From contig NZ_FNOK01000005.1 in the NCBI RefSeq assembly GCF_900106995.1, positions 62,001-126,000 on the forward strand: DNA of 64,000 bases, in the 5' to 3' direction. Below, in pieces: positions 6,212-53,544 of this stretch; within the stretch, counting starts at the first letter, position 1, and each line of letters begins with the position of its first letter. A program made the translations under genes and the position numbers. The DNA is from Saccharopolyspora shandongensis. Lineage in GTDB: Bacteria; Actinomycetota; Actinomycetes; Mycobacteriales; Pseudonocardiaceae. The notes beneath the pieces were generated by a model. It saw only the letters and a list, made by a program, of their open reading frames with translations. It was not told the DNA's origin and made no database searches.

Positions 6212-6496
6212 CAGTTTCAATGAGGGTTTTTCATCCTGGTGAGCCCGCAGTCGCGGGTCGCAAAGGTGCACGTCGATGGGGTGTCGCATGCGCCGCAGGC
6301 GCATAGCCCACCTACGACACTTGCACCGCCGCGGGTTCACGGTGCCCACCCCTTCGGGGTTCCCTCGGCGAGGACGGCCCCTCCGCCGTGTATTGGACAT
6401 ACATCAGGAGGGGCATCCACAGACCAGGGAGCCTCTGAGGTTCCGCTACCCGCACCGCCACGCAAACTGAGGTTGGAAAAACCTCAATTGAAACTG
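6212..6496 (-). repeat. Structured intergenic repeat, copy A (285 bp, inverted ends)
   Basis: Copy of a family found eight times in the window, here in reverse orientation. Its ends are inverted repeats of about 22 bp (CAGTTTCAATGAGGGTTTTT at left; the complement of CAGTTTCAATTGAGGTTTTT at right). Inside are a paired stem GCCCCTCC/GGAGGGGC and a hairpin ATGCGCC-GCA-GGCGCAT at 6288-6304. Other copies have different bases at these stems but keep the pairing. The right end lies 10 bp from the stop of the convergent SDR gene. Confidence 0.75.
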
Positions 6497-6506
6497 CGGG
6501 TTGGGG

Positions 6507-7259
6507 TCAGCGGGCGAGGTAGCCGCCGTCGACGTAGAGCTCGGAGCCCGTGGTGAAGGACGCGTCGTCGCTGGCGAGGTAGGCGACCGCCGCCGCGACC
6601 TCGGCCGGGCGGCCGAGGCGGCCCAGCGGCGTCACCGCGAGGATCGCCGCCTCCCGGTCGGTGCCGCGGGCGCCGGCCAGGATCGCGGTGTCGATGAAGC
6701 CGGGATGCACCGAGTTCACCCGGATCCCCGTATCGGCCCACTGCAGCGCGGCGTTCTTGGTGAGCAGCCGGACCGCGCCCTTCGCCGCGTGGTAGGCCGG
6801 GCTCGTGCCGAAGCCGCCGCTGGCGCCGAAGATCGAACTGATGTTGATCACCGACGCGTGCTCGGAGGCGCGCAGCGCCTCGGCCGCGGCCCGCATGCCC
6901 AGGAACACGCTGGTCTGGGTGACCGCGATGGTGCGTTCGTAGCTCTCCGCCGTGGTGTCCTCGATGGTGCCGTGGTCGGCGATCCCGGCGTTGTTGACCA
7001 GGATGTCCAGGCCCCCGAACTCGTCGACGGCGGACCGGACCGCGGCCGCCCACGCGGCCTCGTCGGCGACGTCGTGGTGCAAGAAAAGCGACCTTCCGCC
7101 GTCGTCGCGGATCTCGGCGGCGACGGCGGCCCCGGCCTCGTCCTGGATGTCGGTGACCACGACCGCCGCGCCTTCCGCGGCCAGCCTGAGGGCGGTCTGC
7201 CGGCCGATTCCGCCCGCACCGCCGGTGACCAGCGCGACCCTGTCCCGCAACCGCAACAT
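6507..7259 (-). CDS. SDR-family NAD(P)-dependent oxidoreductase
   Basis: 250-residue classical short-chain dehydrogenase/reductase. The cofactor motif TGGAGGIG is at residues 12-19 and NNAG near 90. The catalytic Ser, Tyr and Lys appear in SSIFGASGG and YHAAK around 140-160, and the C-terminal half ends YVDGGYLAR. It is closest in type to 3-oxoacyl-ACP reductase or alcohol dehydrogenase-like SDRs; the substrate cannot be told. ATG at 7259 is chosen because AGGGTGG lies just upstream and residues 1-8 fit the usual SDR start. A possible monooxygenase relic follows upstream on the same strand. Confidence 0.9.
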   Translation of the reverse strand: MLRLRDRVALVTGGAGGIGRQTALRLAAEGAAVVVTDIQDEAGAAVAAEIRDDGGRSLFLHHDVADEAAWAAAVRSAVDEFGGLDILVNNAGIADHGTIEDTTAESYERTIAVTQTSVFLGMRAAAEALRASEHASVINISSIFGASGGFGTSPAYHAAKGAVRLLTKNAALQWADTGIRVNSVHPGFIDTAILAGARGTDREAAILAVTPLGRLGRPAEVAAAVAYLASDDASFTTGSELYVDGGYLAR

Positions 7260-7318
7260 CGATCCACCCTTCGCCGAACGATCTTGCAACGAAGGGTGGC
7301 ACGGCGCGGCGGAATCCG

Positions 7319-7426
7319 TCACCGGCCGGATGGGCGAGCGCCCGCGGTCTCGGTGATCCGGCCGATGTGGCCGTCCGGTCGCACCAGCACGAGCGTCCCG
7401 GCGGCCACGTCGTAGGCCCGCCAAGC
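7319..7426 (-). pseudogene. Possible C-terminal relic of an aromatic FAD monooxygenase
   Basis: The reverse strand encodes about 35 residues, AWRAYDVAAGTLVLVRPDG followed by HIGRI, ending in a stop. LVRPDGH followed by a short tail is the usual C-terminus of phenol-hydroxylase-type FAD monooxygenases. Nothing upstream in this frame resembles the rest of such an enzyme. It lies between the SDR start and the lipoprotein stop. Identification rests on one short motif. Confidence 0.35.
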
Positions 7427-7434
7427 GAGCCGGG

Positions 7435-8595
7435 TCAGTCTTTGCCCGCGGAACCGGCGGACGGGGACTCGATCCGCAGGACGCGGTCGTCGCTGGAGAT
7501 CGGTTGGCCGCCGTCTTTGTTCGCGGTGCCCAGCCACACCAGGCCGTCCGGGCCGAGCGCGGCGGCGGAGAAGCGCCCGTAGGTCTTCTCCATGACCTTC
7601 GTCGGCTGACCGGTGAAGCTGCCGTCCGGCGCCGGGTGCAGGGTGTACAGCGCCGCGGCGTCGGTCAGCGCCACCACGACCTGCCCCGGGTCGGCGGCGC
7701 AACCCGCCACCCCGGGCCGCTCCGCCCAGGTCCACGCCGGCGACCCCAGCGGCTCGCCCAGCTGCACCCGGTACAGGGCGTCCTGGCCGCCGCTGCGGTC
7801 GGTCACCCAGTACATGCCCAGCGCGGGCGTGCCGCACAGCCCTCCCGGCGAGGTCAGCCCGGCGGCGACCACCGGCGACGTGGGGTTCGGGTTGCCCGCC
7901 ACGGGCTTGCCGGAACTGTCGATGCGCAGCACCTTGCCCGCCAGCGACTGCGGATTCGCGGCGTTGGCCGGGCTGCCCGCGTTGCCGGTGGCGATCAGCA
8001 GCGAGCCCTGGCCGTCGTCGAGCATCGCCCCCGCGTTGCCCGTCGAGCCCTTCGGGATGCCGGTCAGCACCGGCTTGGGCCGGTCCCCGGCCGCGACCCG
8101 GACGACCTGGTTGTCGCTGCGGGTCGTGACGTAGGCGTAGAACAGCTCGTCCTCGTGGTACGTGGGGGAGAGGGCGAGCCCGGTGAGCCCGCCGCCACCG
8201 CTGGGATCGACCGGAATCCGGGCCAGCTCAACGGGTTTCGTGCCGCGCTGCACGCGCAGCACCCGCCCGGTGGCGCGCTCGCCGACGAGCGCGGCCTGGC
8301 CGCCGGGCAGCACCGCGATCGCGCCGACCGGATCCAGGCAGGTGGCCACCACCGCCGGATCGGGGTCCTCGCAACCGACCGGCGCGTTCGGTTGCTGCGG
8401 CGACGTGCCGGATTCGGGCGGCGGCGAGGACTCGTTCTCGAAGGACGGCTGCGGGCCGGCCTGCGGCTCCAGCGAGGGCGGGTCGCCCCACGGCCGGGGG
8501 TGCTCGTCGGGGAACTGCGCGCAGCCGGCCAGCAGCGTGCCGAGCACGGCTGTCATGCCCAGCAGAAGACGACGCATGCGAAACGAGGCGGCCAC
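7435..8595 (-). CDS. LppZ-like lipoprotein, PQQ-dependent sugar dehydrogenase (GSDH) fold
   Basis: Exported beta-propeller protein of up to 386 residues. The N-terminus is a lipoprotein signal (RRLLLGMTAVLGTLLAGC, lipobox LAGC), then a Pro/Ser/Gln-rich linker to about residue 75. The rest is like glucose/sorbosone dehydrogenases (GLALSPTYHEDELFYAYVT, GNAGSPANA, LTSPGGLCGTPALG). In M. tuberculosis lppZ sits at the equivalent place next to a DoxX gene. Start is GTG 8595; ATG 8577 gives a shorter, equally good signal peptide, and neither has a strong RBS. Activity is untested and could be structural. Confidence 0.85.
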   Translation of the reverse strand: MAASFRMRRLLLGMTAVLGTLLAGCAQFPDEHPRPWGDPPSLEPQAGPQPSFENESSPPPESGTSPQQPNAPVGCEDPDPAVVATCLDPVGAIAVLPGGQAALVGERATGRVLRVQRGTKPVELARIPVDPSGGGGLTGLALSPTYHEDELFYAYVTTRSDNQVVRVAAGDRPKPVLTGIPKGSTGNAGAMLDDGQGSLLIATGNAGSPANAANPQSLAGKVLRIDSSGKPVAGNPNPTSPVVAAGLTSPGGLCGTPALGMYWVTDRSGGQDALYRVQLGEPLGSPAWTWAERPGVAGCAADPGQVVVALTDAAALYTLHPAPDGSFTGQPTKVMEKTYGRFSAAALGPDGLVWLGTANKDGGQPISSDDRVLRIESPSAGSAGKD

Positions 8596-8740
8596 GACGC
8601 CCGACCCTATCGGCCGACGGGTGAACCCAGGGTGAGCCGGTGCTCGCCGGCCCCGTCGCCGCGGTTCGGTCCGCGATCTCGATGGAAATCGGGCCTTCGA
8701 TCTGCGGCGAACGGACCTCGGTTTCCGGGATGCGGAAGGT

Positions 8741-9706
8741 TCAGCGCTCTGGGCGTTCGGCGCGGCGGCGCGGGCCCGGCTCCGGGAGGCGCAGGCGGAT
8801 CCGCGGGACCGGCGGCGGTGGCGGGTCGATGCCGAGCCGGGCGCACTCGACCGCTTCCACCCGGCGCAGCAGCAGGGCCAGCTCCTCGCGCACCACGTCG
8901 GGGGCCTCGAACGGGATGAAGTGCGACGTCGCCAGCTGCCGCACCCTCGCCTGTGGCAGCGCCGCGACCGCCCGGACGGTGCCGGCGAAGTCCGCCAGCA
9001 CGTCGTGCCGTCCAGTGAGGACGGTCAGCGGGCAGCTCAGCCCCGTCACCTGGGTCCGGGCCGATGCGCTCCACGCGAGGCCCATCGCCAGGTGCCACTG
9101 CCAGTCCCGGTGCAGCAGCTGCCGGAGCACCGCCGCGGCGACCTCGCGGTCCACCTCGGGGCGCAGCAGGCCGCTGCACCGCACGAGCTGCGCCGCGAGT
9201 TCCGTGACCGGCAGCCGGGACGTGATCGACGTCAGCAGGCCGCCGAAGATCTGCAACGAGGCGGAGCCGCTCGCGGCGAGCAGCCGCCGGGCGAGCTCCG
9301 GCACGCCGAGCGCCGCGAGCAGCGCGTCCGCGGCGGCCGTCGGCGGCCCGGCGAGGAGCATCAGGCCGCGCACCCGATCGGGGAACCGCCGGGCGAGCTC
9401 GACCGCCACCACCGTGCCCGCCGACCAACCGACGACGGTGCAATCCTTCACACCCGCGTCGTCGAGCACGGCCAATGCGTCGTCCACTTGATCACCGAGC
9501 GTGCCTGAATGATTGTTCTCCGGTGTCCAACCCAGCATTCGGGCCGACGAATCCATCGGAAGAATTTCGGGCGCGGCACCGAGCTCCGGGCACACCAGGA
9601 CCGCCTGTGGCGCCGCGGTCTCCGGCGTCCAATGCGTGGACGCCCATTCCCGGGGCCGCGCGCCACCTGCGGAAACGTCGAACTCACGGAACAGCTGATC
9701 GGCCAT
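8741..9706 (-). CDS. Alpha/beta hydrolase
   Basis: 321-residue alpha/beta-hydrolase. The nucleophile elbow is GWSAG, the acid is probably the Asp in LTGRHDVL, and the His is in ATSHFIPFEAP. A lid region follows the nucleophile. The frame opens further upstream, but ATG 9706 (MADQLFREF) has GGGGGA upstream and keeps the promoter region for the divergent DoxX gene. No close family name can be given; it could be a haloperoxidase-like or ester hydrolase. The divergent neighbour starts only 113 bp away. Confidence 0.8.
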   Translation of the reverse strand: MADQLFREFDVSAGGARPREWASTHWTPETAAPQAVLVCPELGAAPEILPMDSSARMLGWTPENNHSGTLGDQVDDALAVLDDAGVKDCTVVGWSAGTVVAVELARRFPDRVRGLMLLAGPPTAAADALLAALGVPELARRLLAASGSASLQIFGGLLTSITSRLPVTELAAQLVRCSGLLRPEVDREVAAAVLRQLLHRDWQWHLAMGLAWSASARTQVTGLSCPLTVLTGRHDVLADFAGTVRAVAALPQARVRQLATSHFIPFEAPDVVREELALLLRRVEAVECARLGIDPPPPPVPRIRLRLPEPGPRRRAERPER

Positions 9707-9804
9707 CGAACCATTTTCCCCCAGCCGGGTGTGCGCAGTATCGAACAAATCACTTGTCAGAAAGCTTTTGCCGGAAAGACTCGCACGTTGGGGTGACCAT
9801 GCCC

Positions 9805-9810
9805 TAGCCT
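9805..9810 (+). promoter_or_regulatory. Leaderless-type -10 box of the DoxX gene
   Basis: TAGCCT ends 8 nt before the GTG start codon, so the transcript would begin at or beside the start codon. No ribosome binding site precedes the GTG. No convincing -35 was found. Confidence 0.5.
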
Positions 9811-9818
9811 CGTCCGGC

Positions 9819-10595: not shown

Positions 10596-10612
10596 CCTCG
10601 GAACGACCCGGA

Positions 10613-10649
10613 AAGCGGGGGCGCGCACAACGAGTGCGCGCCCCCGCTT
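10613..10649 (+). terminator. Terminator after the DoxX gene
   Basis: Perfect 15-bp stem (AAGCGGGGGCGCGCA and complement) with a 7-nt loop, 18 nt past the stop, followed by CGTCTTTCG. Confidence 0.8.
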
Positions 10650-10665
10650 CGTCTTTCGCGAGGAG

Positions 10666-10752: not shown

Positions 10753-10765
10753 CGGGCAAAGCGAA

Positions 10766-12653: not shown

Positions 12654-12992
12654 TTTGAAGGTTTCCAAACTCGTTTTGCGTGGCGGTGCAGGTAGCGGCC
12701 CCCCTGCGGGAGTTACAGAAGCCTTCTCGGCTCCGGGATCCCCGACTTGCGCATGACCAATACGCGGCGTCGGGGCTGTCCTCGCGAGAAGACTTCTGAG
12801 AACCCGCGGCGGTGCAAGTTGCTCAGGTGGGCTAAGCGGCTTCGCCGCTTGCGGCCGCTTTCGGCCTTGCGAGTCGGGCGTCGCGGCGGTCTACCACCGG
12901 AAGTGGCTTCGCCACTTGCCTGACGGCGAGGCGTTGCGAGCCCGCCCCCGGACCGCGCCTTGTGGGCGCGGGAAGTTGCGGTGCGGCCGACA
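12654..12992. other. Intergenic region between the PH-domain gene and ilvD
   Basis: 339 bp. Repeat copy B covers 12675-12852. A second small hairpin AAGTGG-CTTCG-CCACTT lies near 12901-12917, outside the repeat core. No gene or clear promoter for ilvD was found. Confidence 0.5.
12675..12852 (+). repeat. Structured intergenic repeat, copy B
   Basis: Starts TTGCGTGGCGGTGCAGG and ends in the hairpin AAGCGGC-TTC-GCCGCTT at 12834-12850. Inner pairs CCCCGAC/GTCGGGG and an outer stem CAGAAGCCTTCTCG with CGAGAAGACTTCTG (13 of 14 paired) are visible. It lies directly 5' of ilvD. This is the copy farthest from a stop codon. Confidence 0.75.
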
Positions 12993-13761: not shown

Positions 13762-13762
13762 T

Positions 13763-13949: not shown

Positions 13950-15779
13950 ATGACCAGCGCCAATACTCGGCAGAATCCGGTCCCGGCGCCCCCGCCAGGA
14001 CGCCGTCCCAAGCCCGCGCCGCCCAGCGGTGCCCCAGTGAAGCTGACCGGTGCTCAGGCACTGGTGCGCTCGCTGGAGGCCGTCGGCTGCGAGATCGTCT
14101 TCGGGATTCCGGGCGGCACGATCCTCCCCTCCTACGACCCGCTCCTCGACTCGAAGAAGGTCCGGCACATCCTGGTGCGCCACGAGCAGGGCGCCGGGCA
14201 CGCGGCCACCGGCTACGCGCAGGCCACCGGCAAGGTCGGCGTGTGCATGGCGACGTCCGGCCCCGGGGCGACGAACCTGGTCACCGCGCTCGCCGACGCC
14301 AACATGGACTCGGTCCCGCTCGTCGCGATCACCGGTCAGCAGAGCACCGGCCTGATCGGCACCGACGCCTTCCAGGAAGCCGACATCTGCGGCATCACGC
14401 TGCCGATCACCAAGCACAACTTCCTGGTCACCGACCCCGAGGACCTGCCGCGGATCATCGCCGAGGCGTTCTACATCGCCGCCAGCGGCCGGCCCGGCCC
14501 GGTGCTGGTGGACATCCCCAAGGACGTCCAGCAGGCGACCATGTCGTTCTCCTGGCCGCCGGAGATGAAGCTGCCCGGCTACCGGCCGACCAGCAAGCCG
14601 CACGGCAAGCAGGTCCGGGAGGCCGCCAAGCTGATCACCGAGGCGCGCCGCCCGGTGCTCTACGTCGGCGGCGGGGTCATCAAGGCCGAGGCGCACGCCG
14701 AGCTGCGGCAGCTGGCCGAGCGCACCGGCATCCCGGTGGTCACCACGCTGATGGCGCGCGGCGCGTTCCCCGACTCGCACCCGCAGCACATGGGCATGCC
14801 CGGCATGCACGGCACGGTCGCCGCGGTCGCCGCGATGCAGCGCGCCGACCTGCTGATCGCGCTGGGCACCCGCTTCGACGACCGGGTCACCGGCCAGCTG
14901 TCGTCGTTCGCGCCGGAGGCCAAGGTCGTGCACGCCGACATCGACCCGGCGGAGATCTCCAAGAACCGCTACGCGGACGTGCCGATCGTCGGCGACTGCA
15001 AGGAGGTCATAGCCGAGCTGATCGACGCGGTCGCCGCCGCCACCGAGCAGCACGGCACCGCGGACCTGACGGCCTGGCGGGCGGACCTCGACGACCTGCG
15101 CGAGCGCTTCCCGCTGGGCTACCAGTGGCCGTCCGACGGCAGCCTGTCGCCGGAGTACGTCATCGAGCGCCTCGGCAAGCTGGTCGGGCCGGAGGCGATC
15201 TACGCCGCCGGCGTCGGCCAGCACCAGATGTGGGCCGCGCAGTTCGTCGGCTACGAGAACCCGCGCACCTGGCTGAACTCCGGCGGCCTCGGCACGATGG
15301 GCTACGCGGTGCCCGCCGCGATGGGCGCCAAGGTCGGCATGCCGGACAAGGCCGTGTGGGCCATCGACGGCGACGGCTGCTTCCAGATGACCAACCAGGA
15401 GCTCGCCACCTGCGCCATCGAGGACATCCCCATCAAGGTGGCCGTCATCAACAACGGCAACCTCGGTATGGTCCGGCAGTGGCAGAACCTGTTTTACGCC
15501 GAGCGCTACTCACACAGTGACCTCGGCACCCACAAGCACCGCATCCCGGACTTCAAACTGCTGGCCGAGGCCTACGGCTGCGCGGGCCTGCGGTGCGAGT
15601 CCAAAGAGGACGTCGACAGCGTCATCCAGCGGGCGATGGAGATCAACGACCGACCCGTCGTGATCGACTTCGTGGTGGGCAAGGACGCCCAGGTGTGGCC
15701 GATGGTCGCCGCGGGCACCGGAAACGACGAGATCATGGCGGCGCGCGGCATCCGCCCGCTGTTCGAGGAGGATGAATGA
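13950..15779 (+). CDS. ilvB: Acetolactate synthase, large (catalytic) subunit
   Basis: 609 residues. The TPP- and FAD-dependent enzyme makes acetolactate or acetohydroxybutyrate, the first common step to Val, Leu and Ile. Residues 1-30 are a Pro-rich extension. The catalytic Glu79 lies in [14 protein letters not shown]. The TPP motif runs from [14 protein letters not shown] to NNGNLGMV in the C-terminal third. The frame opens at TTG 13794, but that region is the leader; ATG 13950 gives the usual length. Transcription is preceded by an attenuator. The stop overlaps the ATG of a 48-codon ORF leading into ilvN. Confidence 0.96.
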
Positions 15780-15922
15780 GCAGCCCTATGTCAACTCTGG
15801 TGCTGCTCAACCGCACCTCAGGGGACCGTGACGTAAACCAGCCACAAGAAACCTCGAAACGAGCGATTGAGCTGGACGCAACCACAACTGCAAATCTCGG
15901 AGAGGCGGGACTGCGCCCATGA
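15776..15922 (+). CDS. Possible 48-residue ORF bridging ilvB and ilvN
   Basis: ATG 15776 overlaps the ilvB stop (ATGA) and its TGA overlaps the ilvN ATG (ATGA), so the 139-nt gap is exactly one reading frame. It begins [17 protein letters not shown] and has no domain. Only a little over half of its third positions are G or C, well below the neighbours. It may therefore be a coupling ORF rather than a gene for a stable protein, or chance. Confidence 0.4.
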
Positions 15923-17740: not shown

Positions 17741-17986
17741 GTGAGTGCAGACAACGAGATCGTCGACAACAAGGCGCACATCCGCCACAAGCTGGACTTC
17801 ACCGACGCGGAGTGGATCACCAGCACGGACGACCCGGACGAGCCGGGCGTCGAGATCGCCTTCGTGGACGGCTACATCGGCATGCGCAACGGCGCCGAAC
17901 CGGAGGGCCCGGTCCTGGTCTTCACGCCGGAGGAGTGGGACGCGTTCGTCGCCGGCGCCAAGGACGGCGAATTCGACGAGCCGTGA
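17741..17986 (+). CDS. Small DUF397-like protein
   Basis: 81 residues, acidic. The C-terminal half (GPVLVFTPEEWDAFVAGAKD) is the conserved end of DUF397, a small actinobacterial domain often paired with XRE regulators. The usual N-terminal WRKSSYS part is absent, so it is a divergent or partial version. GTG 17741 is chosen for its leaderless -10 box; a frame from 17720 is possible. No helix-turn-helix partner lies nearby. Function unknown. Confidence 0.7.
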   Translation: MSADNEIVDNKAHIRHKLDFTDAEWITSTDDPDEPGVEIAFVDGYIGMRNGAEPEGPVLVFTPEEWDAFVAGAKDGEFDEP

Positions 17987-18007: not shown

Positions 18008-18198
18008 TTTGCGTAGCGGTGCAGGTGGCGGCCCCCCTGCGGGAGTTACAGAAGCCTTCTCGGCTGTGGGATCCCCGACTTGTGTATGACCAATACGCGG
18101 CGTCGGGGCTGTCCTCGCTGGGAGAACTCCGGAGGGGTGGGCGCCGTGAACCCGCGGCGGTGCGAGTTGCGAGGGTGGGCTAAGCGGCTGCGCCGCTT
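18008..18198 (+). repeat. Structured intergenic repeat, copy C
   Basis: Begins TTTGCGTAGCGGTGCAGG about 20 nt after the DUF397-like stop and ends in AAGCGGC-TGC-GCCGCTT (18182-18198). The CCCCGAC/GTCGGGG pair is present. The outer stem pairs less well than in the other copies. Confidence 0.75.
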
Positions 18199-24204: not shown

Positions 24205-24262
24205 GGTCCGTCCTCGTCGGATCGCAGTTTCAATTGGAACTGCGATCCGACGAGGACGGACC
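24205..24262 (+). terminator. Terminator after cimA, perfect 25-bp stem
   Basis: Arms 24205-24229 and 24238-24262 are exact complements, starting GGTCCGTCCTCGTCGG. The loop is TCAATTGG. CAGTTTCAATTG across the apex also occurs in the ends of repeat copy A. No T run follows. Confidence 0.8.
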
Positions 24263-24346: not shown

Positions 24347-25129
24347 TTGCGCTTGGCACGTGTCGCCCACTCCGACGGGGTGTCGTTCGTCGCACTGGAG
24401 CCGGATCCGGCCGCACCGCAGGAGAAGGTGCTGGCGGTCGAGATCGACCAGCACCCGTTCGGCGACCCGACGTTCACCGGTCGCAAGTGGCCGATGGCCG
24501 ATGTCCGGCTGCTGGCCCCGATCCTGCCCACCAAGGTCATCTGCGTGGGCAAGAACTACGCCGAGCACGCCCGCGAGATGGGCTCGGAACCGCCGGAGAA
24601 CCCGGTGATCTTCATGAAGCCGTCGACCTCGGTGATCGGCCCCAACGCCGCCATCAAGCTGCCGCCGAACTCCGAGCGGGTGGACTTCGAGGGCGAGCTC
24701 GCCGCCGTCGTCGGGCAGCCGTGCAAGGACGTGCCGGAGGCGCGGGGCACCGAAGTGCTGCTGGGCTACACGATCGCCAACGACGTGACCGCGCGCGACC
24801 AGCAGCAGGCCGACGGGCAGTGGACGCGGGCCAAGGGCTACGACACGTTCTGCCCGCTGGGCCCGTGGATCGACACCTCGTTGGACCCGTCGGACCTGGC
24901 GATCCGCACCGATCTGGACGGCGAGCTCAAGCAGAACTCGCGCACGTCGCTGCAGATCCACGACATCGCGGCGCTCGTGTCGTGGATCTCGCGGGTGATG
25001 ACGCTGCTGCCGGGAGACGTGATCCTCACCGGAACCCCGGCGGGCGTGGGCCCGATGCAGGCGGGCCAGAAGGTCTCGGTCTCCATCGACGGCCTGGGCA
25101 CCCTGACCAACCCGGTCCAGCAGGGCTGA
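24347..25129 (+). CDS. Fumarylacetoacetate hydrolase (FAH) family protein
   Basis: 260 residues, the FAH fold of hydrolases, isomerases and decarboxylases acting on oxo-acids. KVICVGKNYAEHAREMG starts the catalytic domain. Metal ligands are in VDFEGELAAVVG and the following Asp of GYTIANDVTARD. The C-terminus has GDVILTGTPAGVGPM. M. tuberculosis has a similar gene (Rv2993c) just before gltX. TTG 24347 is chosen because GGAGG lies 6 nt upstream; the frame opens further up only across the terminator. The substrate is unknown. Confidence 0.88.
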   Translation: MRLARVAHSDGVSFVALEPDPAAPQEKVLAVEIDQHPFGDPTFTGRKWPMADVRLLAPILPTKVICVGKNYAEHAREMGSEPPENPVIFMKPSTSVIGPNAAIKLPPNSERVDFEGELAAVVGQPCKDVPEARGTEVLLGYTIANDVTARDQQQADGQWTRAKGYDTFCPLGPWIDTSLDPSDLAIRTDLDGELKQNSRTSLQIHDIAALVSWISRVMTLLPGDVILTGTPAGVGPMQAGQKVSVSIDGLGTLTNPVQQG

Positions 25130-25142: not shown

Positions 25143-25423
25143 CCGCGATTCCCATTGAGGTTTCTCATTCTCGTTGTGCGTGGCGGTGCGGGTGGCGGAA
25201 CCTCAGCGTCCGCCTGGGCTGTGGGTGCCCAACCCCGATACACGGCGGTTGGGCCGTCCTCGCCAGGCGAACGTTGAGAACCTGCGGCGGTGCGAGCTGC
25301 GTGGGTGGGCTATGCGCCTGCGGCGCATGCGACTGCTTTCGGGATTCGGTCCGTTGGCTGTCGCGGCTGCGGTCACCAACCACGATAAAAAACGCTCATC
25401 GGCACCTCCAATGGGGATTGCGG
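25143..25423 (+). repeat. Structured intergenic repeat, copy D (281 bp, inverted ends)
   Basis: The ends pair: CCGCGATTCCCATTGAGGT at 25143-25161 with the complement of CCGCAATCCCCATTGGAGGT at 25404-25423. Inner stems are CTCAGCGTCCGCCTGG with CCAGGCGAACGTTGAG (14 Watson-Crick pairs of 16), GCCCAACC/GGTTGGGC, and the hairpin ATGCGCC-TGC-GGCGCAT (25312-25328). It lies 14 bp after the FAH stop and 12 bp from the stop of the convergent FAD gene. Confidence 0.8.
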
Positions 25424-26767: not shown

Positions 26768-28264
26768 ATGAGCACGCCAGAAGCCGCAGCACACGCCGAC
26801 GCCAGGCCCGTTCGCGCCCGGTTCTGCCCCTCGCCGACCGGGACACCGCACGTCGGCCTCATCCGCACCGCCCTCTACAACTGGGCGTTCGCCCGGCACA
26901 ACAAGGGCACCCTGGTGTTCCGCATCGAGGACACCGACGCCAACCGGGACTCCGAGGAGTCCTACCAGGCGATCCTCGACGCGCTGCGCTGGTTGGGCCT
27001 CGACTGGGACGAAGGCCCCGAGGTCGGCGGCCCCTGCGGCCCCTACCGGCAGAGCGAGCGGCGCGACATCTACGCCGACGTCGCCCAGCGACTGCTGGCC
27101 GCCGGCGAGCTCTACGAGTCCTACTCCAGCCCGGAAGAGATCGAAGCCCGCCACAAGGCCAAGGGCCGCGACCCCAAGCTGGGCTACGACAACTTCGACC
27201 GCGACCTCACCGACGAGCAGATCGCCGGCTACCGCGCCGAAGGGCGCAAGCCCGTGCTGCGCCTGCGGATGCCCGATCGCGACATCGCCTTCACCGACCT
27301 GGTGCGCGGCGAGATCACCTTCCCCGCGGGCAGTGTCCCGGACCCCGTGCTGGTGCGCGGCAACGGCGACCCGCTCTACACCCTCACCAACCCGGTCGAC
27401 GACGCGCTGATGCACATCACGCACGTGCTGCGCGGCGAAGACCTGCTGTCCTCCACGCCCCGCCAGATCGCGCTCTACGAGGCGCTGCAGCGCATCGGGG
27501 TCACCGACTTCACCCCCGAGTTCGGCCACCTGCCGTTCGTCATGGGCGAAGGCAACAAGAAGCTCTCCAAGCGCGACCCGCAGTCCAACCTGTTCCACCA
27601 TCGCGACCGGGGTTTCCTGCCGGAAGGCCTGCTGAACTACCTCGCGCTGCTCGGCTGGTCCATCTCCGACGACCGCGACGTGTTCAGCCTCGACGAGATG
27701 GTGGACGCCTTCGAGATCGGTCGCGTCAGCGCCAACCCGGCGCGCTTCGACCAGAAGAAGGCCGACGCGATCAACTCCGCGCACCTGCGCGCCCTCGCGC
27801 CCGACGACTTCGTCGACCGCGTGGTGCCCTACCTCGTCCAGGGCGGTGTGCTCCCGGCCGAGCCGACGGAGCAGCAGCTCGCCATCGTGCGCGCCGCCGC
27901 GCCGCTGGTGCAGGAGCGGCTGATCGTGCTCTCCGACGCCGTCGGCATGATGGCCTTCCTGTTCGCCGGCGACGACTTCGCGCCTGAACCCGCCTCCGCG
28001 GAGAAGGCCCTCGGTGAAGACGCCAAGCCGGTCCTGGAAGCCGCCATCAACGCCCTCGACGCGCTGCCCGAGTGGACCACGGCGGCCATCGAGCAGGCGC
28101 TGAAGGACTCCGTCGTCGACGGCCTCGGCATCAAGCCCCGCAAGGCCTTCGCGCCGGTCCGCGTGGCGATCACCGGCCGCACGGTGTCGCCGCCGCTGTA
28201 CGAGTCGATGGAACTCCTCGGCCGCGACATCTCCCTCGAACGGCTGCGCAAGGTCCTCGGCTGA
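26768..28264 (+). CDS. gltX: Glutamyl-tRNA synthetase
   Basis: 498 residues, class I. It charges tRNA(Glu) and, in organisms with GatCAB and no GlnRS, also puts Glu on tRNA(Gln). The HIGH motif is HVGL at 28-31, the KMSKS motif is KLSKR near 262, and the C-terminal anticodon-binding helical domain is present. The short N-terminal extension [14 protein letters not shown] is typical of actinobacteria. One tRNA-Gln and two tRNA-Glu genes lie 1.1-3.7 kb downstream and gatCAB 20 kb upstream. Repeat copy E starts directly at the stop. Confidence 0.97.
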
Positions 28265-28324
28265 GAAGCGGGTTTCCAGGCTGAGCGGCTGCGCCGCTTC
28301 AAGGACGACAACCCGCCCTACCGG
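28265..28324 (+). repeat. Structured intergenic repeat, short copy E
   Basis: A 60-bp deleted version. It keeps only the closing stem GCGGGTT/AACCCGC (28268-28274 with 28310-28316) and the terminal hairpin GCGGCTGCGCCGC, followed by CCCTACCGG as in copy G. The inner 130-150 bp are missing. Confidence 0.7.
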
Positions 28325-29413: not shown

Positions 29414-29485
29414 TGGGGTATGGTGTAATTGGCAGCACGACTGATTCTGGTTCAGTTAGTCTAGGTTCGAGTCCTGGTACCCCAG
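29414..29485 (+). tRNA. tRNA-Gln (anticodon CUG)
   Basis: 72 nt cloverleaf: acceptor TGGGGTA/TACCCCA with discriminator G, anticodon arm ACTGA-TTCTGGT-TCAGT giving CTG, and T-arm with GGTTCGAGTCC. CCA is not encoded. It is probably charged with Glu by GltX and amidated by GatCAB. Confidence 0.95.
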
Positions 29486-29518
29486 CGAGCTGGTCACATC
29501 GTGATCACTCAACAACGC

Positions 29519-29591
29519 GGTCCCGTCGTCTAGCGGCCTAGGACGCCGCCCTCTCAAGGCGGTAGCGCGGGTTCAAATCCCGTCGGGACTA
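29519..29591 (+). tRNA. tRNA-Glu (anticodon CUC), copy 1
   Basis: 73 nt: acceptor GGTCCCG/CGGGACT (G1-U72 wobble as in other actinobacterial tRNA-Glu), anticodon arm CCGCC-CTCTCAA-GGCGG giving CTC, T-loop TTCAAAT. Identical to the copy at 31936. It probably shares a transcript with tRNA-Gln 33 nt upstream. Confidence 0.95.
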
Positions 29592-29602
29592 CAAGGGTGG
29601 GA

Positions 29603-29638
29603 GGGCTCTGTCTACGCTTTGCGTAGACGGGGCCCTTT
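29603..29638 (+). terminator. Terminator of the tRNA-Gln/tRNA-Glu transcript
   Basis: 15-bp stem GGGCTCTGTCTACGC with two wobbles, loop TTT, then TTTCC. A second stem ACCCCC/GGGGGT followed by TGCTTTTT lies at 29671-29698. Confidence 0.7.
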
Positions 29639-29809
29639 CCGCTTTTTCATTGGGGGGCCGAGCCCCCCATACCCCCCACGGTGCGGGGGTTGCTTTTTGT
29701 GGGCTCCATCGCCTTTTCGGGCGTACCCGGCCTGGGTTGCCGACCAGCCATCCTCATCTGGGCCGATGGAGCCGGATTGCCCTTATCCAGGCCCTTCGGC
29801 GTTGGGCCT

Positions 29810-31921: not shown

Positions 31922-31935
31922 TCTTCTCGTTACGC

Positions 31936-32008
31936 GGTCCCGTCGTCTAGCGGCCTAGGACGCCGCCCTCTCAAGGCGGTAGCGCGGGTTCAAATCCCGT
32001 CGGGACTA
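31936..32008 (+). tRNA. tRNA-Glu (anticodon CUC), copy 2
   Basis: Identical in all 73 nt to the copy at 29519, with its own promoter and terminator. Confidence 0.95.
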
Positions 32009-32019
32009 CAAGGGTGGGA

Positions 32020-32054
32020 GGGCCCTGTCTGCGGAAGGCGCAGATGGGGCCCTT
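32020..32054 (+). terminator. Terminator of the second tRNA-Glu
   Basis: Stem GGGCCCTGTCTGCG with its partner ending GGGGCCC, then TTTCC. Confidence 0.7.
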
Positions 32055-32254
32055 TCCGTTTTTCGATTGGGGGGCCGAGCCCCCCATGCCCCCCACGGTG
32101 CGGGGGTTGCTTTTTTGTGGGCTCCATCGCTTTTCTGGCGTACCCGGCCTGGGTTGCCGACCAGCCAGATGGCTCAGCCTCAGCTGGGCCTTAGGAGCCG
32201 GATTGCCCTTATCCGGGCCTTCGGAGGTGGCTGGCCCTGCGCTTCGCTTGGGCC

Positions 32255-36640: not shown

Positions 36641-36834
36641 GAAGCGGCGCAGCCGCTTGGCCCACCTCGCAGCTTGCGCTGCCGCGGGTTCTCAGGCTGC
36701 GCCCGCCCTCTGGGCTGCTGGGCGAGGCCAGGCCCCAGCGCTGTGCACTGGGCATGCATAAGTCGGGGATCCCGGAGTCCAGGCGGCGACCGCAACTCCC
36801 GTAGGGGTGCCGCCACTGGCACTGCCACGCAAGA
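36641..36834 (-). repeat. Structured intergenic repeat, copy F
   Basis: Reverse orientation. Hairpin AAGCGGC-GCA-GCCGCTT at 36642-36658; the block GATCCCCGACTT and the 5' end TTGCGTGGCAGTGCC are recognisable on the minus strand. The end lies 17 bp from the stop of the Nudix gene. The closing arms pair only in part (CGGT/ACCG and TCTTG/CAAGA). Confidence 0.7.
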
Positions 36835-36850: not shown

Positions 36851-37828
36851 TCAGGCCAGCGGGTCCGCGAGGTAGTCCGCCGCGGCCAGCCGCAGCGCCG
36901 GGGCGCTGCCGTTCCCGGAAGACCGGTCCCGGGCGAACGTGAGCGTCCAGACGCTGCCCTTCCGGCTGGCCACCTCGCCGAGCCGCAGGTCGGTGGAATC
37001 GGCCAGCCGCGCCACCAGGTCCGGGATCACGCCGCCCTGGCTGCACACCACCGCCGTGCCGGGGCCGTCGGCCACCCCGCGGAGCGCGTCGGCGGCCGCG
37101 TCCGGATCGCCGAGATAGCCCTCTTCGGAAAAGAGCGGCTCGGTCGCAATCCCGATTCCGAGGTCCGCCGCGATCGGCGCCACCGTTTGTTCGCAGCGCA
37201 GTCGCGGTGCGGAATAGATGCGGGCGGGGCCGAACAACGACAACAGCGAATGCAATGCGTCGCGCTGCCGCTGTCCGGCTTCGGTGAGCGGGCGCAGGTC
37301 GTCGTCTCCGGCCCATTCGGACCTTTTGCCTGCTTTCGCGTGCCGCACCAGCAACACGGTCGCGGATTGGGCGGGCGACTTCTCGAATGCGTCGAGCACC
37401 CCGGCGTCGTGCGGATAGCTCAGCAGGTCACGCGCGCGGCCAGTGGGTAGCCAGCGCAGCTCGTCCACTTCGTCGTTCGGCGCGAACGCCCCTTCGCCGG
37501 CCCGGGCGGTGAAGTAGTCGACGACCTTCGGGGCCCGACCGCCGCCGGCCACCGGCACCGAGTAGTCCACCCGGGTCAGGAATCGCGACAGCACGCAGGA
37601 AAACCCGGTCTCCTCGGCCACCTCGCGGACCGCCGCGTGCGCGGGCAGCTCGCCCGGGTCGAGCTTGCCCTTCGGCAGCGACCAGTCGTCATAACGGGGC
37701 CGGTGCACCAGCGCCACCTCGGTGCCGGTGGCGCCCGCGCGCCAGAGCACGGCACCGGCCGCCCGGACCGGTGCTGACGTTGCTTCGTCGATTCCGCCGG
37801 GCACCGGCTGGTTCTCGGTCGTGCTCAT
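36851..37828 (-). CDS. Nudix hydrolase fused to SixA-type phosphatase (MutT1-like)
   Basis: 325 residues. The N-terminal Nudix domain has a complete box (GX5EX7REUXEEXGU) at 54-76. The C-terminal histidine phosphatase starts at LLVRHAKAGKRSEW near 163 and ends near 325. M. tuberculosis MutT1 (Rv2985) has the same architecture; it degrades 8-oxo-dGTP and diadenosine polyphosphates, with the second domain acting on phosphate products. ATG 37828 lies 5 nt after the ppk stop, so the two are one operon. Confidence 0.93.
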   Translation of the reverse strand: MSTTENQPVPGGIDEATSAPVRAAGAVLWRAGATGTEVALVHRPRYDDWSLPKGKLDPGELPAHAAVREVAEETGFSCVLSRFLTRVDYSVPVAGGGRAPKVVDYFTARAGEGAFAPNDEVDELRWLPTGRARDLLSYPHDAGVLDAFEKSPAQSATVLLVRHAKAGKRSEWAGDDDLRPLTEAGQRQRDALHSLLSLFGPARIYSAPRLRCEQTVAPIAADLGIGIATEPLFSEEGYLGDPDAAADALRGVADGPGTAVVCSQGGVIPDLVARLADSTDLRLGEVASRKGSVWTLTFARDRSSGNGSAPALRLAAADYLADPLA

Positions 37829-42909: not shown

Positions 42910-44013
42910 GTGAGCACATCGGATCTCGGCGACGGCACGCGCTGCGTGCGCGGCGGGCACCCGGAGCCGGCCGGCGGGACGCCGCTGCTGCCGGGCCCGG
43001 TCTTCGCCGCGCCGTTCCACCTGGGCGAGGACGTCCAGGCCGCCGATTTCTACGGCCGGGCGGGCAATCCCACCTGGCGGGCGCTGGAGTCGGCCATCGG
43101 CGACCTGGACGGCGGGCAGTGCGTTCTGCTGCCGTCGGGCATGGCGGCGATCAGCACGCTGCTGCGCGCGGTGCTCCGCCCCGGCGATGCGCTGATCCTG
43201 CCCAGCGACGGGTACTACGCGACGCGCCAGTTCGTCCGCGACGAGCTCGCCGAACTGGAGCTGGACGTCCGGGAGATCGACACGCCCGGTCCCTGGCACG
43301 ACGACGTCTTCGCCGGGGTTCGCCTGGTGCTGCTGGAAACCCCGTCGAACCCGGGGCTGGACGTGTGCGACATCGCCGAGCTCGCGGAGCGCGCGCACGC
43401 GGTGGGCGCGCTGCTGGCGGTGGACAACACGACGGCGACGCCGCTCGGGCAGCGGCCGCTGGAGCTGGGCGCGGACATCGTGGTGGCCAGCGACACCAAG
43501 GCCCTGTCCGGGCACAGCGACATCCTGATGGGGCACGTGTCGGTCCGCGACGAGGAACTGGCGCAGCGGCTGGTGCGGGCGCGGACCCTCTCCGGCTCGA
43601 TCCCCGGCCCCTTCGAGACCTGGCTGGCGCACCGCAGCATGGGCACGCTGGACCTGCGCCTGGCGCGGCAGGCCGAGAACGCGGCGGCGCTCGTCGAGGC
43701 GCTGCGCGAGCACCCGGCGGTTTCCGGGCTGCGCTGGCCGGGATTGCCCGGCGACCCGTCGCACGAGCTCGCCCGGCGGCAGATGCGCCGCTGGGGCGGG
43801 GTGTTCCGGTTCGAGCTGGCCGATGCGCGGGCGGTCGAGGAGTTCGTCCGGCGCAGTGAGCTGGTGGTGGCGGCGACGAGCTTCGGCGGCCTGCACAGCA
43901 CGGTCGACCGCCGCGCCCAGTGGGGCGACCCGGTGCCGGAGGGCTTCGTCCGGTTCTCGGCTGGCTGCGAAGACCCGGCCGACCTGGTCGCCGACGTCCT
44001 CCAAGCCCTGTAG
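42910..44013 (+). CDS. PLP-dependent Cys/Met metabolism enzyme (cystathionine gamma-lyase type)
   Basis: 367 residues of the cystathionine gamma-synthase/lyase family. The PLP-binding Lys is in VVASDTKALSGHSDILMG, the phosphate loop is SGMAAISTLLRAVL, and the Asp of AVDNTTATPLG holds the ring nitrogen. Lyase, synthase or methionine gamma-lyase activity cannot be told from sequence alone. GTG 42910 has GGAG 6 nt upstream; ATG 42898 is an alternative. The cysteine dioxygenase and its Cys-rich leader follow, so a sulfur amino acid role is plausible. Confidence 0.85.
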   Translation: MSTSDLGDGTRCVRGGHPEPAGGTPLLPGPVFAAPFHLGEDVQAADFYGRAGNPTWRALESAIGDLDGGQCVLLPSGMAAISTLLRAVLRPGDALILPSDGYYATRQFVRDELAELELDVREIDTPGPWHDDVFAGVRLVLLETPSNPGLDVCDIAELAERAHAVGALLAVDNTTATPLGQRPLELGADIVVASDTKALSGHSDILMGHVSVRDEELAQRLVRARTLSGSIPGPFETWLAHRSMGTLDLRLARQAENAAALVEALREHPAVSGLRWPGLPGDPSHELARRQMRRWGGVFRFELADARAVEEFVRRSELVVAATSFGGLHSTVDRRAQWGDPVPEGFVRFSAGCEDPADLVADVLQAL

Positions 44014-44210
44014 AGCGTTTTCCAGTCACACCTTGCGTGGCGGTGCCGGTGGCGGAACCTCAGGCGTCTTCTCGCTGTGGGATCCCCGGCATGATGAATA
44101 CCAGTCGGGGCTGTCCTCGTGAGAAGAAGCCTGAGAACCCGCGGCGGTGCGAGTTGCTTAGGTGGGCTAAGCGGTTGCGCCGCTTCAAAGGCCACAACAC
44201 GCCCTACCGG
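44014..44210 (+). repeat. Structured intergenic repeat, copy G
   Basis: Begins at the stop of the PLP enzyme. The outer stem CTCAGGCGTCTTCTCG (44059-44074) pairs with TGAGAAGAAGCCTGAG (44120-44135), 14 Watson-Crick of 16, with a sequence unlike that of copy D. Inner pair CCCCGGC/GTCGGGG; hairpin AAGCGGT-TGC-GCCGCTT (44169-44185). Closing arms GCGTTTT and AACACGC. Confidence 0.8.
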
Positions 44211-44349
44211 ACTCCCGAATAACGGCCTCTAGAACTCCAGAAGTGATCAACGGCGGGCGGGATCCGCCACCGTGGTGTGAGATCTTGCGGCTTCGAGTTG
44301 ACGCGGGTCCCCTCCGGCTGGTTCAGTTCTTCCCGTGTTGCTGCGTGCT
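44211..44349. promoter_or_regulatory. Upstream region of the cysteine dioxygenase leader
   Basis: 139 bp between repeat G and the leader ATG; the promoter is expected here but no clear -10 was found. Confidence 0.35.
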
Positions 44350-49512: not shown

Positions 49513-49572
49513 CGGCCCGGCCGTGCTCCACTCTGGTGCGGGCTGCCCACCCGCGCTTTCAGCGACGGATCG

Positions 49573-49806: not shown

Positions 49807-49903
49807 GGCGTGCCCCTTCGTGTGGCCGATGTGCTCGGGGTAGGAAACTGGCAGAAAGTTACCCCATCGGACCGAGCGGATGCTCAAGGAAGGAAGGTCC
49901 CAG

Positions 49904-50869: not shown

Positions 50870-50894
50870 CGCAGGACCGCCGAGGACTTCCCGA

Positions 50895-50943
50895 AACGCG
50901 GAGAACCCCGATGCGCCACCGGCACATCGGGGTTCTCCGCGTT
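50895..50943. terminator. Bidirectional terminator thiL / transporter
   Basis: Perfect 19-bp stem AACGCGGAGAACCCCGATG with an 11-nt loop, 25 nt after thiL and 8 nt from the convergent transporter stop. Confidence 0.85.
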
Positions 50944-50951
50944 CGGGGCGA

Positions 50952-52289
50952 CTAGCCCGCCGAGGAGCCCGCCGGGGCAGGCGCGTCCTGCATCAGCGGC
51001 TTCTTCGCCGTCTCCTTCATCAGCAGGATCGGCACCAGCGCCACCAGGGCCGCGGCCATCAGGTAGAACGCCGGGAACAAGGTGTTGCCGGTCGAGGTCA
51101 CGACGGCGTCGTTGACCAGCGGCGCGGTCCCGCCGAAGACCGCCGTGGAGATGTTGTACCCGATGCAGAAGGCCGCGTAGCGGACCTTCGTCGGGAACAT
51201 CGCCGGCAGCGTCGCCGCCAGCGGCCCGATCAGCTGCACGTGCCCGATCGCCAGCAGGCCCAGCCCCAGGATCGTGGTCAGCACGGTGCCCTGGGAGATC
51301 AGCATGAACGCCGGGATCGGCAGCACGATGAAGCAGATCGCCGCGGACAGGAACAGCGGTTTGCGGCCGACCCGGTCCGACAGCGCGCCCACCGGCGTGA
51401 TGATCACCATCATGAACAGCACCGTCAGCAACAGCGGGACCAGGACCTGGTACTCCTGGCCGTCCTCCACGTGGAGCGTGTTCTTGAGGTACGTCTCCAT
51501 GTAGGTCAGGATCGTGTAGTTGGCGATGTTGATCAGCACCACGATGCCCATCAGGATCAGCAGCTGCCGCCACCATTCCTTGATCAGGTCCTTCAGCGGC
51601 GACTTGGCCACCTGGTGCGTCGCTTCGAGCTTCTTGAACGCCGGCGTGTCTTCCAGCTTGCTCCGCAGGTAGAGACCGACGCCGCCGAGCGGACCGGCGA
51701 TCAGGAACGGAATGCGCCAGCCCCAGCTTTCCATCGAGGCGGTGTCCAGATTCAAGATCAGGATCGTGGGCACCAGCGCGCCGAATCCGAATCCGACGAG
51801 CGTGCCGAATTCCAGCCAGCTCCCCCAGAAGCCGCGGCGCCGGTCGGGCGCGAACTCGGCGATGTAGGTCGCCGCGCCGCCGTATTCGCCGCCGGTCGAG
51901 AAGCCTTGCAGCAACCGGCACAGCAGCAGGAGCATCGGCGCGAAGATGCCGATGGTCTCGTAGGTGGGCAGCAGGCCGATGACGAACGTCGATCCGGACA
52001 TCAGCAGGATCGTCACCGCCAGCACCTTCTGCCGGCCGATCCGGTCGCCCAGCGGGCCGAAGAACAGGCTGCCCAGCGGCCGGAACAGGAAGGAGATGGC
52101 GAAGACGCCGAAGGCCGAGATGGTCTCGAGCGGGCCGGGGAAGAACTGGTGGCCCACGTATGCGGCCACATATGCATATACGCCGAAGTCGTACCACTCC
52201 GTGCAGTTGCCGATTGCCGCTGCGCCAACTGCGCGACGGAGCAGGGAGCGCTGCTCGGCTGATGTTTCGGCTGATTCCTGCGAAGTCAT
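50952..52289 (-). CDS. MFS transporter, metabolite:H+ symporter type (ProP/ShiA-like)
   Basis: 445 residues with about 12 predicted transmembrane helices. The family signature [20 protein letters not shown] is at the N-terminus, [20 protein letters not shown] in loop 2-3, [18 protein letters not shown] in helix 5, and DRVGRKPLF in loop 8-9. It probably imports an osmolyte, a dicarboxylate or a similar acid; the substrate cannot be told. ATG 52289 is chosen; the GTG 15 nt upstream overlaps the GGAGGT. Confidence 0.88.
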
Positions 52290-52658
52290 GAGTTTGCGGC
52301 CCACCTCCGGGTCATGCCATCCACCCTTGCGGTCTTCAGAACTCCGGTGAACCTAGCTGAGCGGCCTTGAGGAGGCCACCAAAAGACGTGGATTGCGTTA
52401 TTCCGATGTTATTTCCTATATGCAAAAGGTCACCGAACGAACGGTCCGCGCGTTGTGTCGGAGTGTCGTCGATTTGACAGCCGAATTCGGCGGGTGACTA
52501 GCGGAAATGGTGCTTTCGTGTGGCAGTCGGATACGGGTGTGCGCCATATCGCCCGCTATGTTACTTCGATCGAGTGTGACGTGCGACACATTGATCGGTT
52601 TGAAGTCGATCTCGGGGCTGTCCGTAGGGCGATCTTGGTCTCTCGCTAGGGTGCTCGC
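52290..52658. promoter_or_regulatory. Divergent region between the transporter and ung
   Basis: 369 bp, AT-richer than its surroundings near 52395-52440. It holds TTGACA at 52474-52479 on the + strand with a weak TAGCGG -10, an imperfect inverted repeat around 52568-52599 (CGATC...GTGT/ACAC...GATCG) and the leaderless -10 of ung at 52647. No gene seen. Confidence 0.45.
52647..52652 (+). promoter_or_regulatory. Leaderless-type -10 box of ung
   Basis: TAGGGT, 6 nt before ATG 52659. Confidence 0.5.
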
Positions 52659-53333
52659 ATGGTCGCACGTCCGTTGCAAGAGCTCGTGGAAGCCGGATGG
52701 GCGCAAGCCCTGGAGCCGGTCGCCGATCAGATCAAGAAGATGGGCGAGTTCCTGCGCACCGAGGTAGCCGAGGGCCGGACGTACCTGCCCGCGCCGGAGC
52801 ACGTGCTGCGCGCCTTCCAACAGCCGTTCCACGACGTGCGGGTGCTGATCGTGGGCCAGGACCCGTACCCGACGCCCGGGCACGCGGTCGGCCTCAGCTT
52901 CTCCGTCGCGCCCGGCGTCGCGCCGCCGCGCAGCCTGGTCAACATCTACCGCGAGTACACCGAGGACCTCGGCCACCCCAAGCCCACCAGCGGCGACCTC
53001 ACGCCGTGGACCGAGCGCGGGGTGCTGCTGCTCAACAGGGCGCTGACGGTCCGGCCCCGCAACTCCGGTTCGCACCGGGGCAAGGGCTGGGAGGAGATCA
53101 CCGCGCAGGCCATCCGCGCGCTGGCCGCGCGGGAGGAGCCGCTGGTGGCGATCCTCTGGGGCCGCGACGCCCGCGATCTGCGCCCGCTGATGCCCGGCGT
53201 GGAGTGCGTCGAATCGCCGCACCCGAGCCCGATGTCGGCCGACCGCGGCTTCTTCGGCTCCCGCCCGTTCAGCCGGGTGAACGAGATCCTCGAGCGCCGC
53301 GGCATGGAGCCCATCGACTGGAAGCTGCCGTAG
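52659..53333 (+). CDS. ung: Uracil-DNA glycosylase
   Basis: 224 residues, family 1 UDG. It removes uracil from DNA. The catalytic Asp68 is in GQDPYP at 66-71, and the DNA-binding loop [19 protein letters not shown] ends the fold. [10 protein letters not shown] near 128 replaces the usual LLLNTVLTV. ATG 52659 has a leaderless -10 box. Repeat copy H begins at its stop. Confidence 0.96.
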
Positions 53334-53343
53334 AGGGGTTTCT

Positions 53344-53544
53344 GCTCGCCTTGCTCTGCGGTGCGGGTGGCGGCCCCCTGCTGGAGTTGCGGACGCCGCC
53401 TGGACTGTGGGATCCCCGACTTACGTGTGCCTAGCGGCATCGGGGACTGGCCTCGCCCAGTAGCCTAGAAGGCGGGCACAGTCTGAGAACCCGCGGCGGT
53501 GCAAGTTGCGTGCGTGGCGAAAGAGGAAGCGGCTGCGCCGCTTG
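53344..53544 (+). repeat. Structured intergenic repeat, copy H
   Basis: Starts 10 nt after the ung stop. Block TCTGCGGTGCGGGTGGCGG, the pair CCCCGA/TCGGGG and hairpin AAGCGGC-TGC-GCCGCTT (53528-53544) are clear. The outer stem is weaker than in D and G. Confidence 0.7.

Follow-up and report, generated by a model that had tools for sequence, protein, structure and literature searches.

The genome of Saccharopolyspora shandongensis carries intergenic repeats whose hairpin arms change together from copy to copy, raising the question of whether they are mobile DNA or structured RNA. Eight copies were listed in the stretch analysed here, a window of 64,000 nt (contig NZ_FNOK01000005.1, positions 62,001 to 126,000), by an initial annotation that left the choice between a non-autonomous mobile element and an unrecognised structured RNA. 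The repeats are probably non-autonomous mobile DNA elements, akin to miniature inverted-repeat transposable elements (MITEs) or repetitive extragenic palindromic (REP) sequences, with a conserved, covarying and selected hairpin core. Most lie in the sense direction of the adjacent gene, often 3' of stop codons or within terminator-like hairpin loops. This reading draws on copy density, mobility, paired change in the stems, sense bias and spacing from the stop codon and, for one subfamily, on ends and a target in common with an IS5-family insertion sequence (IS). The gene-sense orientation and the frequent placement of the core 20–36 nt past a stop codon are newly described here.

The repeat family and its distribution

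The family is real: the blocks first described occur in all eight window intervals, and a covariance model that contains no window sequence, R1, recovers seven of them at E-values from 1.7e-26 to 2.4e-7. These seven contain the core. The eighth, 28265–28324, is a right-end fragment with a weak R1 match at 28195–28299 (E 0.026), and the boundaries given for the copies, which are named here by their first position, are approximate. R1 was built on an alignment, A1, of 54 copies, 29 from the S. shandongensis genome (10.15 Mb, "own") and 25 from records of named species ("named"). They were drawn from 172 nhmmer matches (72 own, 100 named): duplicates were removed, and a match had to have arms of regular length, a recognisable end hairpin and an E-value no higher than 1e-6. 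Because A1 admits regular arms only, copies with irregular arms, including all window copies, are outside the pair counts given below.

Two sets of own regions were used. The first (L001–L038) was chosen around the best matches to copy 44014 and is therefore biased to its subfamily. The second (L244–L263) comprises 400 kb placed by hand, blind to matches, and is the fairer sample. These arbitrary regions hold 20 matches, fragments included, 13 of them above 100 bits, and from this density ~300–500 copies are estimated genome-wide. A search of relatives with a covariance model, as the initial annotation had envisaged, found matches in at least 32 of 120 genomes. These comprise 21 of the 22 genomes of the same genus and 11 from other genera, one per genus, giving at least 12 of 74 genera, all in the same family. 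The survey scored up to 25 matches per genome under stricter filters, and weak matches may be lost. Among 112 pattern-matched loci, 77 matched the family, in Saccharopolyspora, Actinopolyspora, one Halopolyspora locus and two Amycolatopsis loci.

The first impression that the repeats match no named family is borne out for Rfam. At gathering threshold, Rfam returns only three tRNAs from the whole window and nothing at the repeats. Copy 44014 has zero Rfam matches up to E 10, and the six matches of copy 6212 all fall far below gathering scores. No description of the family was found in the literature searched, a weak negative given that few subscription journals were covered and both ISfinder and the S. 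erythraea genome paper were outside its scope.

Anatomy and subfamilies

The elements are about 170–290 bp long and contain no transposase gene. Typically, a copy-specific left hairpin is followed by a core of ~155 nt in which a conserved block, GCGGTGCRGGTNGCGG, precedes a long multi-helix stem with an apical hairpin. On the 3' side of this stem lie a second block, CCGCGGCGGTGCRAGTTGC, and then the end hairpin AAGCGGC/GCCGCTT. In some copies an extra small hairpin is visible by eye in one arm, so that a single structure does not fit all of them. When 69 own tails were compared, 16 fell into subfamily ii, 10 into subfamily i and three into a third group, with 40 unshared.

Orthologous copies of close relatives carry mixed arm types, and this pattern suggests that copies undergo gene conversion with one another. 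At one own copy (L009 10093–10277), the counterpart in relative G017 (L216) is without a 115-nt stem, as if this had been lost between two GCGGTGC direct repeats.

Paired change in the core

The core keeps its pairing to a degree that shuffled alignments do not reach. Across the 54 copies of A1, 95.4% of 2298 pair cells are paired, compared with 83.6% in shuffles, none of 500 of which reaches the observed value. Both sides of a pair have changed in 236 cells versus 75.8 in shuffles, and 20 of the 43 pairs show such change. Covariation scores 0.271, whereas shuffles give 0.080 and alignments with slid partners no more than 0.075; of these two controls, only the slid versions allow for the relatedness of copies. 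Most pair changes run from one Watson–Crick pair to another. The exchanges of inner stem, end hairpin and outer stem reported for the window are likewise present in the sequence. A shared structure with paired change is thus borne out; that one fold serves every copy is not, given the extra arm hairpin.

Copies are gained and lost

The copies are mobile, having been gained or lost at their sites since related species split, as was expected of a non-autonomous mobile element. Window sites were aligned in six relatives (G004, G005, G006, G014, G017 and G021). Copy 12675 is present in G017, G006 and G005, truncated in G014 and absent from G021 and G004. At the site of copy 18008, copies occur in G017, G006 and G005, G014 has an empty site, G004 has no copy and G021 retains only a right-block fragment. 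Copy 25143 is absent from G021, G004 and G017, the last at a locus that is 97% identical, and left-half-like relics stand in its place in G006 and G005. G014 carries an unrelated insert of ~3.1 kb at this site (L192 13800–16970); its candidacy as the autonomous element was dropped, as by eye its genes are unrelated. Copy 36641 is present in G017 and G005 and absent from G006, G021 and G004. The site of copy 44014 lacks it in G021 and holds other sequence in G017, a shortened copy in G014 and a subfamily ii copy in G004. Copy 53344 has an empty site in G006, G005, G014, G021 and G004, and G017 aligns through; S. flava (L147) carries a copy 3' of the same gene.

Copies from other species give the same picture. 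A flank match in the fetched own-genome DNA was found for 26 of 85 named copies. Ten were aligned to own DNA, of which one is shared (L137_3463, S. kobensis) and nine have no copy in the own genome. The edges at these nine sites are clean in three (L100/L003, L107_4895/L026 and L137_4624/L019) and poorly aligned in six. At the sites of copy 25143 and of L009_16491, G017 has a bare terminator-like hairpin, and subfamily ii therefore sits inside such a palindrome. G017 also has a copy inverted within the same intergenic region as the own copy L005_16826. Separately, one gene has a member of the family at its 3' end in both the own genome (L009 516–742) and S. soli (L086 2401); the two copies differ, and only one of them is at the stop codon, the other lying farther downstream.

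Position and direction relative to genes

Genes are taken here as open reading frames called by a purpose-written script, with no curated annotation. Between tandem genes the copies favour the sense direction, by 34 to 9 in the named sample and by 35 to 10 in the own sample, arbitrary regions included. The arbitrary regions alone give 9 sense and 1 antisense, and 15 of their 17 copies lie downstream of a gene in the same direction. Only 1 of 54 own copies, and none of 60 named ones, runs more than 20 nt into a called gene.

The distance from the stop codon also has a preferred range. The GCGGTGC block lies 20–36 nt past the stop of a same-direction gene in 60 of 116 copies (56 own, 60 named). 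Restricting the count to sense copies no more than 200 nt from a stop leaves 87, and here the 60 compare with 7.4 expected if spacing were uniform. A spacing of 20–35 nt is seen in both samples, in 25 of 41 sense copies of the own and 33 of 49 of the named. The stop codons at the 60 tightly spaced copies are TGA (40), TAG (15) and TAA (5). No recurrent family of neighbouring genes was found beyond common ones among 314 neighbour proteins, the largest cluster of which has 7 members, reductase-like by eye; a functional link through neighbouring genes was dropped on these grounds.

Ends, target and a candidate mobilising enzyme

Read by eye, the ends of subfamily i are GAGSCTGTTT on the left and CATCCAAAACAGCCTC on the right, flanked by TA. 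Its right end with flank, CATCCAAAACAGCCTC|TATAG, matches the terminal inverted repeat of an IS5-family element, GAGGCTGTTTTGGAT; the protein of this element, 301 aa long, has DUF4096 and DDE_Tnp_1 domains and belongs to the IS4/5 family. The inverted repeat was seen on the element in genome G013 and at own contig ends. G013 has six copies of a related IS; each of the five fetched occupies a terminator loop (CGTGAGTNNTTTG..CTATA) and has inverted ends of 19 bp, with a single-base difference in L265. In the own genome, three IS copies with GAGGCTGTTTTGGA as their left end run into contig ends and are incomplete. One of them, L264, lies in a terminator of the CGTGAGTNNTTTG..CTATA type, as do L013 and L028 of subfamily i, which by eye sit in the terminator loop. 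Subfamily i therefore qualifies as a MITE by its shared inverted repeat and terminator-loop target. A second MITE, at L012 14603–14853, has the same IS5-like ends and a different interior of terminator-like hairpins, and directly adjoins a cut-off IS copy.

Candidate target duplications read by eye are TA (or TATA) in subfamily i and ATT/AAT in part of subfamily ii; a few other copies also have candidates. Systematic tests gave values within or near the control range. None of the fetched DUF4096 and DDE_3 loci carries the core within its element, save IS630-like copies inserted in repeats.

These IS630-like elements (PF13358) of the own genome lie at TA in the apical loop, at L233 1–345, L234 1376–1687 and L243 1–280, and account for 3 of the 12 DDE_3 matches listed, four of which were read. 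An IS630-family source for the repeats was rejected: the three loci touch repeats, but the IS itself is inserted into the loop. The repeats may offer such elements a safe site in which to insert.

On the mobile-element reading, an IS5-family transposase would move subfamily i in trans, and the same or a related enzyme may have moved the other subfamilies before their ends decayed. The hairpin would be selected in active source copies, either because it aids the jump or because it replaces a 3' hairpin disturbed by insertion. Between genes, 3' of stops or in terminator-like loops, the copies seldom touch coding sequence.

Several observations weigh against this account. The tail cluster of subfamily i takes in only 10 of the 69 own copies, with 16 in subfamily ii and 40 tails unshared, and only L264 of the three truncated own IS copies occupies the terminator, L268 abutting another MITE and L271 lying elsewhere. 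Among 55 stop-codon copies, inverted ends are not clearly above control: six have at least 9 of 12 matches versus 1.9 expected (control maximum 8), and the mean is 7.09 versus 6.90. Target duplications in the same 55 behave alike, with 7-mers or longer in 11 versus 6.0 (control maximum 13). A cut-and-paste DDE transposase needs no covarying hairpin core, and its symmetrical ends leave the sense bias unexplained. The tight spacing holds for only 5 of the 15 sense copies of the arbitrary regions; seven of the other ten are subfamily ii. Two comparisons with more distant relatives also depart from the mainly one-sided change of close orthologs, with 9 compensated versus 4 other pair changes at the one site shared with S. 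kobensis and 5 versus 7 in S. flava at 53344. These counts fit local selection or gene conversion equally.

What keeps the arms paired

The foremost alternative is that the core is an RNA element of the 3' untranslated region (a terminator, stabiliser or regulator), spread by insertion or gene conversion and kept at each gene for mRNA function. The strong covariation (0.271) would suit it, as would the sense orientation and preferred stop-codon spacing in both own and named samples and the nine compensated changes at the S. kobensis site. The strand preference of the mismatches is less favourable. Among pair cells of the helices other than P2, A·C mismatches number 56 and G·U mismatches 12, so that the tolerance of G·U over A·C expected of sense-strand RNA is not seen there, where the antisense strand would show it. 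With P2 included G·U rises to 69 cells; P2 contributes 57, of which 54 belong to one invariant G·T column pair (45–96 of A1), and this pair, a point in favour of the RNA element, forms only in sense-strand RNA. Measured against the nearest neighbour copy, 59 changes are double, and single changes give A·C in 32 cases, G·U in 11 and other mismatches in 17 (p 0.002 for A·C versus G·U). At unpaired positions too, G>A (82) outnumbers C>T (33), as raw counts uncorrected for composition. Folding energies favour the reverse strand, by a mean of 2.4 kcal/mol, and the sense strand forms the stronger fold in only 27 of 94 copies. The mismatch pattern does not look like selection on sense-strand RNA, although the test is not clean, and RNA from the antisense strand is a possible candidate.

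Orthologous copies also count against a function at each gene. In nine overlapping comparisons between close relatives there are 6 compensated and 53 one-sided or broken pair changes, rough counts since decayed copies align poorly. At site 12675 the numbers of compensated and other changes are 0 and 10 (own–G006), 0 and 13 (own–G005), 0 and 4 (G006–G005) and 0 and 2 (own–G017). They are 4 and 7 (own–G017) and 1 and 9 (G017–G005) at site 18008, and 0 and 5 (own–G017), 1 and 3 (G017–G005) and 0 and 0 (own–G005) at site 36641. The balance of 6 to 53 favours a structure kept in the jumping source lineages over one kept gene by gene. Only one of the ten aligned named copies is at a shared site, and the neighbouring genes include no recurrent family beyond common ones. 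Overall, a structured RNA of the strand shown, one of the two options first raised, fares poorly, and a per-gene RNA element is considered unlikely.

Slightly less likely again is a mobility mechanism that uses a folded single strand, or an RNA of the antisense strand, formed by the core, as substrate or guide and targets stop codons in the orientation of the gene, with the IS5-like ends of subfamily i a later capture. Such a process would match the concentration of paired change between source lineages as opposed to resident orthologs, the mismatch bias outside P2 (if the RNA is antisense), the sense bias relative to the gene and the DDE end signatures of stop-codon copies, which are not clearly above control. 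A study of S. erythraea, in the text accessible, reports antisense transcription enriched at gene 3' ends and 190 putative intergenic non-coding RNAs, which would also fit, and makes no link there to the repeat (PMC3610266). Against such a process, no enzyme was found, with five Y1 matches and the fetched DUF4096/DDE_3 loci having no core of their own. There is also no recurrent neighbour gene, and antisense RNA would have C·A in place of the invariant G·T pair.

More doubtful is a purely mutational origin, in which complementarity of the arms is maintained by hairpin-templated repair or gene conversion and not by selection. The nearly equal numbers of double (59) and single changes (32 A·C, 11 G·U, 17 other) between close copies would agree with this, as would flips between G-C and C-G with few intermediates and the exchange of arm types between orthologous copies. 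One-sided changes nevertheless persist at orthologous copies, where repair should act too.

Mobilisation as REP sequences by a RAYT (Y1) transposase is very improbable and was rejected: the repeats are high-copy, intergenic, palindromic and mainly downstream of coding regions, as is reported of REPs (PMC3733652), but their core of ~155 nt compares with 20–40 bp there, and none of the five Y1_Tnp matches in the genome (L278–L282) has the core within the ~1.5 kb of flank fetched, a result that includes no search for REP tags.

The copies in the window

Seven of the eight intervals, fragment included, sit 3' of the stop codon of a same-strand gene, and in four (18008, 36641, 44014 and 53344) the core block is 24–29 nt from the stop. 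The exception, copy 12675 (12675–12852, plus strand, E 5.8e-26), is the only one antisense to both neighbouring genes.

Copy 44014 (44014–44210, plus strand, E 1.7e-26) lies directly 3' of the stop of gene 42946–44013, with its core block 26 nt away. Its structured core (44040–44185, plus strand) comprises GCGGTGC blocks flanking the long stem, followed by the end hairpin, and decayed subfamily i ends, (TA)GAGCGTTTTCC .. AACGGCCTC(TA), can be made out by eye. The core block of copy 18008 (18008–18198, plus strand, E 3.2e-17), which has the extra arm hairpin, starts 29 nt after the stop of gene 17741–17986 (plus strand). That of copy 36641 (36641–36834, minus strand, E 2.8e-8) is 25 nt past the stop of gene 36851–37828 (minus strand), and that of copy 53344 (53344–53544, plus strand, E 2.4e-7) is 24 nt past the stop of gene 52686–53333.

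Two copies belong to subfamily ii. Copy 6212 (6212–6496, minus strand, E 5.7e-21) has its core at 6288–6458, bounded by the ends GAGGTTTTTCC../..GAAAAACCCTC and flanked by the palindrome arms CAGTTTCAATT../..ATTGAAACTG. Its core block is 48 nt past the stop, at 6507, of the same-strand gene just upstream (6507–7259, minus strand), and its tail is common to 15 other own copies. Copy 25143 (25143–25423, plus strand, E 1.6e-24) lies between the arms of a terminator-like hairpin, downstream of the same-strand gene 24380–25129. The fragment at 28265–28324 (plus strand) consists of the end hairpin and tail, directly 3' of the stop of gene 26768–28264, and is 86% identical to 44165–44214 over 50 nt.

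Other repeats occur in the window. An inverted repeat at 24205–24262 has arms of 29 bp that are 97% complementary, with no spacer and CGCAGTTTCAATTG at its centre, a motif that recurs beside subfamily ii copies. A direct repeat of 184 nt with 93% identity (29515–29698 and 31932–32115) has a tRNA gene in each unit, and a third tRNA lies at 29414–29485. A clean insertion of ~127 bp between two genes (15776–15901), by eye unrelated to the repeats, is found in the own genome, G017 and G006 and not in G005, G014, G021 and G004.

Relation to known elements and implications

The repeats resemble IS5-family MITEs in being short, numerous and free of a transposase, and subfamily i shares their inverted repeat and terminator-loop target. 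They differ in having a covarying core common to subfamilies with different ends, stop-codon copies with no inverted ends above control and a sense orientation 3' of stops. The mycobacterial interspersed repetitive units (MIRUs) insert into stop codons (DTGA) and follow gene direction; they are shorter and do not have the stem architecture of the present repeats. Compared with the structured RNAs of Rfam, the covarying stems are alike, and no Rfam family matches the repeats at gathering threshold.

REP, GTAG and CGTC palindromes, as two reports describe them, are likewise intergenic and mainly downstream of coding regions (PMC3733652, PMC2817692), and GTAG REP ends often provide the TAG stop codon of flanking genes (PMC3733652). 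Unlike REPs, described there as 20–40 bp, the repeats have a core of ~155 nt, and no Y1 gene with the core was found in a search that did not extend to REP tags.

Relatives in Saccharopolyspora include producers of antibiotics and insecticides. If the mobile-element reading is right, perhaps several hundred gene ends in S. shandongensis, plus an unknown number in related producers, carry mobile hairpins that no source searched here describes. Their siting at stop codons poses a testable question, namely how a mobile element settles at 3' ends with no damage to genes. The reading would also caution that, where bacterial repeats covary, the selection behind it may act on the mobile element and not on a host RNA.

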